From NCBI GenBank assembly GCA_007118805.1, contig SKQW01000152.1:1-39861 (forward strand): a DNA stretch of 39,861 nucleotides, written 5' to 3'. Within the stretch, counting starts at the first letter, position 1. Each line of letters begins with the position of its first letter. Position numbers and translations under genes: made by a program. Under the pieces are notes generated by a model. It saw only the letters and a list, made by a program, of their open reading frames with translations, was not told the origin of the DNA and did no database searches. The stretch comes from Rhodobiaceae bacterium (GTDB lineage Bacteria > Pseudomonadota > Alphaproteobacteria > Rhizobiales > Tepidamorphaceae). Shown one piece after another: positions 5,854 to 34,959 of this stretch.

Positions 5854-6018
5854 CTAGTGGTTCGAGTCCGGCATTTGCCCCCCTTGCCGCACCCGCTATG
5901 CCAATGTTGGACTTATAAGAACCACTGGCAAATTATTGTTTTAAAATGGAATTTCGAATTTGACATTTGATCGCGCACATGCCTCGGACCGGGTATCAAA
6001 TGTCAAATTCATTCCACT
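5854..6018. repeat. MITE/REP-like two-hairpin intergenic repeat, copy 1
   Basis: CTAGTGGTTCGAGTCC...GAACCACT hairpin plus a perfect 16-bp inverted repeat GAATTTGACATTTGAT (5956-5971) / ATCAAATGTCAAATTC (5995-6010); same structure inverted at 33970-34138. Confidence 0.85.
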
Positions 6019-30823: not shown

Positions 30824-31142
30824 ACGGGCCTTGCTTCACACTTACGGATAATGCCCCAGGGATGCAAGGCCTCGCCGCCGGGTGGCGCGCGGGGGCCGGT
30901 GCGGCCACGCGCCGATGATCCGTCGGCTATTCCGTATCAGTACTTCGACAAGGCACCGCGCCGCGGTGCTTCCCGCCTCCACATGTGTGCGGTAGTCCGC
31001 CCCTTGCAACCGCAGCAGGATTGACCCGGCAGGTGCAAAAGATAACAGTGCGGTGTAGGAACGCGGCTCAGTTCTGCCTCTCGCCGATTTGCAGATGCTA
31101 GGTGGCGGTGTACGCAACGGCGTTCGCCGCAAAGGGGGCACG

Positions 31143-33908
31143 ATGGAGGGGATAATGCACTATTACAATTTCGGAAGATCTGTACAGAGTATCGACGACC
31201 GCGGCGGTCGACTTTCAGATACGACGCAGGCCGACCTATCAAGACTTGCCCCTTGCCTGAGACGGGCCGGGCTTCACTTCGCGCTCCTGGCGGCGGTGCT
31301 GTTCTGGCCGGCCAGCCATGCCGCCGCGGATGGCATCGGCCAAGCGCCCCAGGCACCTGAGCGCCTGATGCAGATCGCCAGTGCCGAGCCGGTCGCCATC
31401 GTCAGCGATCCGGACGGCTTCATCGAGGCGCCGGCCGAGGTGCCCGTCGGCGCGCGCTTCGAGGTGTTCTGGGCCGAGCCGCTTCATTCGCGCGACCGGG
31501 TCACGCTGGTTCCAGCCGGTGCCGATGCCGATGCGATGGGCTCACGCAGCCAGCGTAGCCGCGTGCGCGACGATGTCTCGGCCGGCCTGGTGGCGCCGGC
31601 CGCGCCGGGGCGCTACGAGGTCCGCTATGTGTCCCGGCAAGACGGGCTGATTGCCGGCGTTCCCGTCGAGGTGGTCGATACGTCGGTGACGCTCGACGTG
31701 CCGGCCGAGGTGACCGTCGGCGAGCGCTTCGAGGTGTTCTGGGACAAGCCGATCCACAGCCGCGACAGGGTCACCCTGGTGGCGCCGGATGCCGACGACG
31801 ATGCGCGCGGCTCGCGCAGCCAGCGCAGCCGGGTGCGCGGCAACACCTCGGCAACGCTCGTCGCCCCGTCCGAGCCCGGAAACTACGAGATACGCTATCA
31901 GCTCAATCAGGATCGTCGCGTCATGGCGCGCGCGCCGATCCGGGTCGTCGACGCCAGCGTCTCGCTCGACGCCCCGTCCGAGATCGTCGTAGGCGCGCGC
32001 TTCGAGGTCCGGTGGGACAATCCGATCCACAGCCGCGACAGGGTCACCCTGGTGGCACGGGATGCCGACGACGATGCGCGTGGTTCGCGCAGCCAGCGCA
32101 GCCGGGTGCGCGGCAACACATCGACGACGCTTGTCGCCCCGTCCGAGCCCGGCGACTATGAGCTGCGCTATCAGCTCAACCAGAACCGCGAGGTCATGGG
32201 CCGTCTACCGGTCAGGGTCGTCGACGCGCGCGTGGCCGTCGCGGCCCCGGCGCAGGTGGAGGCCGACGAGCGCTTCGACGTTCGATGGAGCGAGCCGATC
32301 CACAGCCGTGACCGGGTGACGATCGTGCCCGTCGATGCCGCTGAGGATGCCCGTGGCTCGCGCGGTCAACGCACAAGGGTTCGCAATAATACGTCCCGGT
32401 CCTTGACCGCCCCGTCCGAGCCCGGCGACTACGAGGTCCGCTATCAGCTCAACCAGGACCGTCGGGTGATGGGCCGCGCATTTGTCGAGGTCGTGCCGAC
32501 AGGCACGGCGATCCCGGAGGCTGCGGCGCGGATTCAGAATCCCGGGCCGATCGAAATCCTCACAGCCAGGGCGGAACAGACCGCGCCAAGCGGCCAGGAT
32601 CTCCCGGATGAGCGGTATTTGATGCTCCGGATCGGCGCGCTGGGCAGCGCCGAGAGCGCCGATGCGCGTGTCGAGATCATCGAGGAGATCATCACCTACG
32701 GCGAACCGGTCATCGAGATCATCATCGAGTTGCGCGACGATGGCTTGTTGGACGAGGCCGATGCCGAGTTGATCATCGCCGGCATAGAGGGCGCGCCGGC
32801 CGAGGCGGCTGCGCCCGAGCAACCGGCCGACACGGGAACCGCGTCCGAGGTCAGTGACGGGTCATCCATCGCCGAGGACATCATGGCCGCGGTGATCGCC
32901 GCTGACGGCACGGCAAGCTACACCGACGTGTCGGTGGCCGACGACGTGGTGACGATCACCGGGTTCAGCGCAGTCGGCCCGGACGGCGAGTCCCTGGAGA
33001 TCGATACGGTTATCGTCTCGGGCCCCGTGCCGCAGCAGGAAGGCGGCTTCACCGCCGAGAGCGTCCACTTGGAGGGCGGGCGGCTCGCCGACGACGAGGG
33101 GACCTTCACCTGGCGGACGGGCATCCTGGAGGGCGTGACCGTGCCGGCGCCGGACGAGATCGACGACCCGGCAAACGCGGCGCCCATGGCACGGCTGACG
33201 CTGACCGAAATCACCATTGAGCCCGCCGAGCTGGCTGACCCGATCGAGGTTGCCTCGATCGAACTGCGCTTCGACCGCGTCGTCGACGACGTGCCGCACG
33301 AGGTCTTTCTGGCGATCGAGCGGATCTCCATGTCGAGCGCCGCGCTCGCCGATCAGCCCGAGCAGCAAGCCATGCTCGAAGCCATGGGCTATGACCGCCT
33401 CTCGGTGGATCTGACCCTCGATGTGGCGTACGACGGCGAGACCGAGACGGTCGATGTCCGCGGGCTCACCATCGGGGCGGACGACGTCGGGCAACTGAGC
33501 CTGTCGGGCCGGGTCGCCGACCTGGCGCTTGACAAACTGCAGGGCGGCGACGCCCTTGAGGCGTTGCTTGAAAGCCCGGCCGTCGAGCTCATCGAAATCC
33601 GCTTCGACAACGCCGGCATCGTCGAACGGGCCATGGAGATGCAGGCGCAGGAAGAAGGCCTGAGCGTTGCGGATTTCCGCAGCCAGAGCCTTGCGGAGCT
33701 GTCGATGATGCTGTCGATGATCGGCAACCCGGCCTTCGAGGAGCAGGTGGCCGCCTCGGTGGGTGCCTTTATGGAAGCCCCGCGATCGCTGCGCATCTCG
33801 GCCAGGCCCAGCGCCCCGGTGAAGTTCATGCAGCTCTTCGGCGTGGCGATGGCCGCGCCGCAGTCCATCCCGGACGTTCTTGGCATCGAGATCACAGCCA
33901 ACGACTGA
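31143..33908 (+). CDS. Large exported protein: four tandem Ig-like ~91-aa repeats plus a uncharacterised C-terminal domain
   Basis: Signal segment LRRAGLHFALLAAVLFWPASHAAADG; repeated F[ED]V.W..P.HSRDRVT.V..DA..DARGSR.QR.RVR; ATG at 31143 behind AAGGGGG. Confidence 0.8.
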   Translation: MEGIMHYYNFGRSVQSIDDRGGRLSDTTQADLSRLAPCLRRAGLHFALLAAVLFWPASHAAADGIGQAPQAPERLMQIASAEPVAIVSDPDGFIEAPAEVPVGARFEVFWAEPLHSRDRVTLVPAGADADAMGSRSQRSRVRDDVSAGLVAPAAPGRYEVRYVSRQDGLIAGVPVEVVDTSVTLDVPAEVTVGERFEVFWDKPIHSRDRVTLVAPDADDDARGSRSQRSRVRGNTSATLVAPSEPGNYEIRYQLNQDRRVMARAPIRVVDASVSLDAPSEIVVGARFEVRWDNPIHSRDRVTLVARDADDDARGSRSQRSRVRGNTSTTLVAPSEPGDYELRYQLNQNREVMGRLPVRVVDARVAVAAPAQVEADERFDVRWSEPIHSRDRVTIVPVDAAEDARGSRGQRTRVRNNTSRSLTAPSEPGDYEVRYQLNQDRRVMGRAFVEVVPTGTAIPEAAARIQNPGPIEILTARAEQTAPSGQDLPDERYLMLRIGALGSAESADARVEIIEEIITYGEPVIEIIIELRDDGLLDEADAELIIAGIEGAPAEAAAPEQPADTGTASEVSDGSSIAEDIMAAVIAADGTASYTDVSVADDVVTITGFSAVGPDGESLEIDTVIVSGPVPQQEGGFTAESVHLEGGRLADDEGTFTWRTGILEGVTVPAPDEIDDPANAAPMARLTLTEITIEPAELADPIEVASIELRFDRVVDDVPHEVFLAIERISMSSAALADQPEQQAMLEAMGYDRLSVDLTLDVAYDGETETVDVRGLTIGADDVGQLSLSGRVADLALDKLQGGDALEALLESPAVELIEIRFDNAGIVERAMEMQAQEEGLSVADFRSQSLAELSMMLSMIGNPAFEEQVAASVGAFMEAPRSLRISARPSAPVKFMQLFGVAMAAPQSIPDVLGIEITAND
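31408..32500 (+). repeat. Four tandem coding repeats (period 270/273/273 bp)
   Basis: Equivalent codons of the FEVFW-type motif start at 31461, 31731, 32004, 32277; units 2 and 3 nearly identical over ~130 bp. Confidence 0.9.
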
Positions 33909-33969: not shown

Positions 33970-34138
33970 CTAGTGGAATGAATTTGACATTTGATACCCG
34001 GTCCGCGGCACGCGCTCGATCAAATGTCAAATTCGAAATTCCCCTAGAAAGCAACATTTTGCTAGTGGTTCTTTTGATTTCGACATTTGCCATAGCGGGT
34101 GCGGTGAAGGGATTCAAATGTCGGAATCGAACCACTAG
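33970..34138. repeat. MITE/REP-like two-hairpin intergenic repeat, copy 2 (inverted relative to copy 1)
   Basis: CTAGTGG...CCACTAG termini; 16-bp inverted repeat GAATTTGACATTTGAT (33980-33995) / ATCAAATGTCAAATTC (34019-34034); reverse complement aligns along its length with 5854-6018. Confidence 0.88.
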
Positions 34139-34140
34139 CC

Positions 34141-34959
34141 TTACACGGCCACTAGGGCGATCAGCAGCCAGCTCCCGGCGGCAACGAGCACGCCTGCGAG
34201 CCCGTAGTCGAGCCAGTGGCCGGCGGGAACCGTCTTCTCCACCAGCACGTAAAGGGCGAGCCCCGCGATCCAGTAGAGGTTCATCACGCCGCCAAAGAAC
34301 AAAAGCAGCATCAGCACCCAGCAGCACCCCAGGCAGTAGGCGCCGTGATGCAGCCCCATCACCACGGCCCCGCGCCGGCCCGGCCGCCAATGCTCGGCGA
34401 GCCAGGCGGCGGGAAAGCGGCAATGACGCACGCAGGCCCGCTTGAGGGGGATGAGCTGATATAGCCCGGCGGCAATCAGCAGCCCAGCGCCGACGAGTTG
34501 GCTGGTCACTGCCATGTCCGGGCCGATCAGGCCGCCGCTCTCCAGGCCCCAATGGGCGGCGGTGGCCGCCAGAGAGAAGCCCGCCCAAGCGATCAGATAG
34601 CTCGCCGTGAACAGCGTCGTCGGTACAAAGGGGTTGCCTTGCGCGCGCTGGCGCCGGTTGACCGCGGCGAACAAGAGGATCATCGGCGTGGCGCCGGGCA
34701 ACATCATCGCCACCATCATGATCCACCACATGAAGAACATCATGACGGCATGGCCCGGCGACCACGCCATCGGCGTCATGGCCATCCCGGCCATCGCCTC
34801 CATGCCCGACATGCCAGTCATCTCGATGGCCGACATGCCCATGCCGGCGCCCGAGAGCACATAGGCCCAGCTTGCGGCCAACACCGCAAGCAGCATGCCG
34901 AGCATGATCCAACGGTCGCGGCGCAACGCGCCCTCAACCGCGCTATCCATTCGCATCAC
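34141..34959 (-). CDS. DUF2182-family integral membrane protein (predicted metal-binding)
   Basis: Met-rich GMGMSAIEMTGMSGMEAMAGMAMTPM, WWIMMVAMMLPGATPMILLFA, HHGAYCLGCCWVLM; RBS ggaaggag. Confidence 0.88.
   Translation of the reverse strand: MMRMDSAVEGALRRDRWIMLGMLLAVLAASWAYVLSGAGMGMSAIEMTGMSGMEAMAGMAMTPMAWSPGHAVMMFFMWWIMMVAMMLPGATPMILLFAAVNRRQRAQGNPFVPTTLFTASYLIAWAGFSLAATAAHWGLESGGLIGPDMAVTSQLVGAGLLIAAGLYQLIPLKRACVRHCRFPAAWLAEHWRPGRRGAVVMGLHHGAYCLGCCWVLMLLLFFGGVMNLYWIAGLALYVLVEKTVPAGHWLDYGLAGVLVAAGSWLLIALVAV

Follow-up and report, generated by a model that had tools for sequence, protein, structure and literature searches.

The CcrM-associated intergenic repeats (CIRs) are said to go back to Chen and Shapiro in 2003. 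In Caulobacter and Brucella these repeats have been described as a pair of inverted-repeat arms with a linker between them, with TA termini and a GANTC at a terminal loop, and their mobility is recorded as unexplained (PMC2229807). Other repeats treated in the same paper are unlike the CIRs, their stem being formed by pairing of the 5' end with the 3' end. The RUP element of Streptococcus pneumoniae has IS630-family ends and inserts at TA, and its mobilisation by IS630-Spn1 has been proposed (PMC2229807), while Bru-RS1 and Bru-RS2 of Brucella are palindromic intergenic repeats that are preferred sites of the TA-duplicating IS711 (PMC2266754). TA is given as the insertion site of IS630 elements in a passage of PMC2170065, where the title of a cited article (Tenzen & Ohtsubo 1991) indicates a preference for CTAG. 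The element analysed here resembles RUP as a small, non-autonomous unit with IS630-family ends and insertion at TA, and RUP is as such a precedent for a miniature inverted-repeat transposable element (MITE) of the IS630 family; RUP differs in being 107 bp long and in occurring in Firmicutes, whereas our element has a pair of local hairpins and targets CTAG.

The element occupies positions 33970..34138 on the plus strand of the window, the whole stretch of 39,861 nucleotides that was analysed, and measures 169 bp from CTAG to CTAG. As the earlier note reported, its reverse complement aligns along its length with 5854-6018 (84% identity), and this inverted copy 1 (5854..6018, minus strand) sits between divergent genes. 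The CTAGTGG/CCACTAG ends described in that note are present in copy 2, but at the A end of copy 1 the CTAG has decayed and CCACTCTTGG replaces CCACTAG. Hairpin A of copy 2 contains the identical 16-bp inverted repeats GAATTTGACATTTGAT/ATCAAATGTCAAATTC around a 23-nt loop, and the second hairpin, CTAGTGGTTC...GAACCACTAG, is likewise present as first described. The outer arm of hairpin A (33970..33995, plus strand) is a terminal inverted repeat and its inner arm (34019..34047, plus) is shifted against it by 2-3 additional bases; a linker of 14 nt (34048..34061, plus), placed from the sequence and the alignment, leads to the inner arm of hairpin B (34062..34089, plus), which has about 4 extra bases, and the outer arm of B (34115..34138, minus) forms the other terminal inverted repeat. 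At base 11 of the B end lies a GAATC (34124..34128, no strand assigned), which is a GANTC site of the kind methylated by CcrM. The inner CTAGs of copy 2, at 34044 and 34062, are parts of the two hairpins. The element's end at 34138 is indeed 2 bp from the TAA stop of a minus-strand open reading frame (34141..34959), of DUF2182 type according to the earlier note, and a convergent plus-strand frame (31089..33908) ends 61 bp from the other side. We note that this second frame contains four tandem 273-nt repeats (window 31380-32468) that are 68-81% alike, and so encodes a protein with repeats of about 91 aa.

In the source genome, a 4.12-Mb draft of 407 contigs and 93% completeness, BLAST gave 79 matches, some of them self-palindrome hits on the other strand, corresponding to about 23 near-full-length places and about 17 fragments, with the best partner copy at E 3e-74. 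Most of the near-full-length copies have the same ends as copy 2. An exact 55-nt hairpin-A pattern occurred in 9 places in this genome and a control pattern in none. The copy count proposed in the earlier note thus returned many further copies, and confirmed that the repeat family is real, beyond chance. Relatives of the element were found in 43 of 398 genomes (21 of 141 genera) of an order-level sample of the Rhizobiales, four members of one genus having about 15 matches apiece, and a covariance model detected the element in 20 of 319 genomes of the class. An exact 24-base piece matched Pleomorphomonas, Rhizobium, Mesorhizobium, Stappia, Oryzibacter, Bauldia and Pararhizobium, as well as Brucella (B. 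pituitosa and B. daejeonensis), one Novosphingobium and a Hyphomonadaceae bin. Fifteen plasmid records, mostly from Rhizobiaceae, contain the element. Other members of the source genome's family are without it, except for one marginal hit; a phage search gave no match, Rfam applied to the window returned tRNA alone, and no description of the element was found in the open-access literature, which was the part of the literature searched.

Comparison of genome G062 with genome G061 revealed exact insertion sites. At two places where G062 has a copy (L093 and L096), the corresponding G061 positions (G061:856514-856517 and G061:2179881-2179884) have flanks 95% and 97% identical and contain a plain CTAG, and both filled sites have CTAG at each end of the element. 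In a third, more diverged pair (L040), CTAG is present on the left side of the empty homologue. Two copies arranged head to tail in tandem have one CTAG in common, as in ...CCACTAGTGG... (L100). The outcomes that the earlier note had named as contrary to its proposal, namely a lack of further copies or empty sites with unshared boundaries, did not occur. For the copies in the window, the family-level search reached the region of the DUF2182-type gene alone, with no alignable empty junction. A duplication of TA is inseparable from one of all 4 bp of CTAG in the sequence, and TA is probably what is duplicated.

The same target is used by autonomous insertion sequences. Genome G061 contains IS630-type ISs in CTAG, one of which lies inside the CTAG at the end of a hairpin B. 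This 1,146-bp IS (G061:C1:380565-381710, in L149) has a transposase stop codon TAG that is formed by the target CTAG, and ISs of its type are found in 10 further places, giving 11 transposase matches in one genome. An IS landing within the repeat (G061:380565) is a point of likeness to the Bru-RS repeats, although these are 103-106 bp long as against 169 bp and were compared by description only. Relatives of the G061 transposase form a clade of proteins of about 359 aa with DDE_3 and HTH domains, encoded by ISs that measure about 1,150 bp and end in CTAGTGG; these ISs are found at CTAG in G122, G266, G354, G389, G004, Methylocystis, Rhizobium, Sinorhizobium, Bradyrhizobium and others; CTAGTGGATCAAATCTGACATTTGAATCCC (5') and CTAGTGGATCGAATCYAACAYTTGGTGCCC (3') are an example of their ends, and G004, from the family of the source genome, has an IS with the end TAGTGGATCACGTCTGACATTTGAATCCC and the 5' end GACATTTGAATCCC. 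In ungapped comparison over the 21 bases after CTAG, the outer arm of hairpin A matches the 5' ends of these ISs at up to 18/21 bases (Bradyrhizobium elkanii) and the outer arm of hairpin B their 3' ends at up to 17/21 (G128), while the CTAG-anchored background, the elements themselves aside, rarely exceeds 11/21 and the inner arms score 4-9. The window's own A arm (33970..33995) reaches 17/21 against the 5' ends of the B. elkanii and G266 ISs, and the family consensus of the B outer arm 16-17/21 against the 3' ends of Shinella, Rhizobium leguminosarum and G128 ISs. The G061 IS, whose ends read CTAGTGCACTGAC, initially seemed to be the partner, but ISs of the GTGG type gave the better fit. No IS with ends identical to those of the element was found among the ISs compared.

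The many copies, the exact CTAG empty sites and the IS630-like ends together lead us to read the element as a MITE of the IS630 (Tc1/mariner) family, with the 5' end of an IS in the outer arm of A and the 3' end in the outer arm of B, moved by a transposase acting in trans; we put the probability of this reading at roughly 90%. The terminal inverted repeats match, insertion is at CTAG, and the 169-bp element exists in many copies and contains no transposase gene. The earlier note's proposal of a non-autonomous mobile element is borne out, and its guess of a TA-targeting transposase agrees with the use of the same CTAG by IS630 relatives. The transposase would bind the outer arms and cut the element out, and would insert it at the TA within a CTAG, so that duplication of the TA would restore CTAG on both sides. 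Judged from the sequences of the ends, the enzyme is most likely an IS630-type transposase belonging to other ISs. For a two-hairpin repeat of the alphaproteobacteria this defines the target, CTAG, and the ends, and it proposes a family for the transposase. The source draft genome showed no intact cognate IS and had no match to the transposase clade at E<=1e-60, and for this reason the copies there may be inactive now. We also observed in this genome the broken remnant of an IS630 of GTGCA type (G000:C128:8569-9085, L207) and an ORF for a distant IS630-like transposase (G000:C183:453-1520, L192).

The position of GANTC within the ends separates hairpin A from hairpin B. The 5' ends of the ISs have GANTC at base 24 in 15 of 16 cases and the 3' ends have it at base 11 in 16 of 16, with 5 of 5 in the GTGCA group at either end. 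Among 35 aligned copies of the element, A keeps the base-24 site in 22, as GAGTC or GAATC at the edge between stem and loop, and B keeps the base-11 site in 26, with almost no crossover. These positions, together with the end matches, are the reason for reading A as an IS 5' end and B as a 3' end, and they favour two different IS ends over an inverted-dimer origin, in which the loop of B would be the reverse complement of that of A (permutation p 0.11, not significant). ISAr1 and ISMno19 of the IS630 family similarly have a CTAG target, comparable ends and GANTC at bases 24 and 11, and differ in being autonomous, about 1,150 bp long and without a hairpin at each end. In the element, behind each end stands its own inverted copy, displaced by 2-4 bases, which gives two hairpins and a linker, and this arrangement probably arose by fold-back of the IS ends. 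In the outer arms the distance from the end to the CATTTG core is 18 bases (A 32/35, B 35/35), in the inner arms mostly 20-22, and the shifted inner arms are presumably unused as ends.

A further reading makes the element a CIR that would serve mainly as a regulatory site linked to methylation, and not as a transposon. The likeness by description is considerable, including two hairpin arms and a linker, TA within both terminal CTAGs, a conserved GANTC, a mostly intergenic location and occurrence in alphaproteobacteria including Brucella. However, CIRs are about 110 bp long as against 169 bp, the A-end base-24 site has been degraded to GATAC in the source genome and is lost in all 13 copies checked there, and GANTC sits where IS630 ends have GANTC, which makes it look like an inherited transposon feature. 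We consider this explanation unlikely. Other alphaproteobacterial genomes contain shorter two-hairpin elements (L346, L347, L348, L350 (1501 onwards)), 111-121 bp long and ending in CTAGTGG/CTAGTGT, which match IS630 ends at up to 15-16/21; a hairpin loop of one of them contains GAGTC. Set beside the CIRs by description alone, these may be the CIRs themselves. As a lead, the target and ends of our element point to the same IS630 answer for the CIRs, whose mobility was left unexplained (PMC2229807) and whose target and transposase were not known.

We suggest, with considerable reserve, that alphaproteobacterial two-hairpin repeats including the CIRs could be IS630 MITEs with fold-back IS ends, in which GANTC would let CcrM gate transposition to the cell cycle. 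Dam methylation gates the transposition of some other ISs. Whether GANTC sites fixed in IS630 ends tie transposition to CcrM methylation can now be asked directly. CcrM as the sole reason for these sites is weakened by base-11 GANTC outside the alphaproteobacteria, which occurs in IS630 relatives of Streptomyces, Pseudonocardia and Pseudomonas luteola (L363, L366, L367, L369, L370) and is absent from those of Rhodococcus, Mycobacterium, Variovorax and P. syringae. The base-11 site may therefore be partly a transposase recognition motif. Base-24 GANTC was found only in ISs of alphaproteobacteria, although these are at the same time the close relatives.

A functional RNA or 3'-UTR element, whose hairpins stabilise mRNA or terminate transcription and whose copies are kept for that purpose, would account for the strong folding (z-score -7.6 against dinucleotide shuffles) and for the paired substitutions. 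The order CTAG, hairpin A, linker, hairpin B, CTAG holds in all 35 aligned copies from about 15 lineages, 97.8% of cells in the two stems pair, and 20 of 45 pairs have changed on both sides, values reached by 0 of 500 shuffles. The two hairpins are each preserved by paired changes, and the earlier suggestion of two related stem-loops holds through this covariation. Folding of the whole strand with A against B, which has the lowest energy for the window copy, was rejected, as the A-with-B pairing of the outer arms has 1 double-change pair, no more than shuffles, against 20 for the local hairpins. Yet template-switch repair of imperfect palindromes or constraint at the level of DNA can also give covariation, fragments are common, no terminator-like site was found, and six copies, copy 1 among them, are placed between divergent genes. 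Also counted in favour of a role in RNA is the position of the copies at gene ends. At about 25 of 57 examined sites a predicted gene stop coincides exactly with the TAG in the terminal CTAG, counts that are approximate as the gene calls are simple ORF picks, and this is above the 16% of all CTAG sites that are predicted stops in 1.6 Mb of G061, a genome in which CTAG is two- to eight-fold under-represented. Insertion at CTAG restores a TAG stop, which explains the position of the element next to genes, and proximity to stop codons follows largely from the target; the surplus above 16% may be due to insertions being selected against elsewhere, in genes and promoters. Copies abutting stop codons are in this way explained without a role in transcription, the recruitment as a 3' stabiliser or terminator envisaged in the earlier note is not upheld, and an RNA element as the main explanation appears improbable. 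A reading as a repeat of REP/REPIN type, with a RAYT (Y1-HUH) enzyme as its transposase, in keeping with the REP-like label first given to the element and with its palindromic, intergenic, multicopy and doublet character, is very hard to sustain, as REPs are palindromes of 20-40 bp with a GTAG or CGTC tag (their size as given in a passage of PMC3733652) and not of 169 bp with CTAG ends, and as exact insertion at TA/CTAG and IS630-like ends are foreign to them.

Variants of the element were also seen. At G061:850908-850984 and 759429-759499, each with about 100 bp downstream, hairpin A is kept and the core of hairpin B differs (e.g. GCATACGTTTGC), which suggests several two-hairpin subfamilies. 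Single hairpins of 68-79 bp that keep one arm of each kind (G061:797241-797308, L071, L076) are as expected from internal deletions between the repeated GACATTTG cores.
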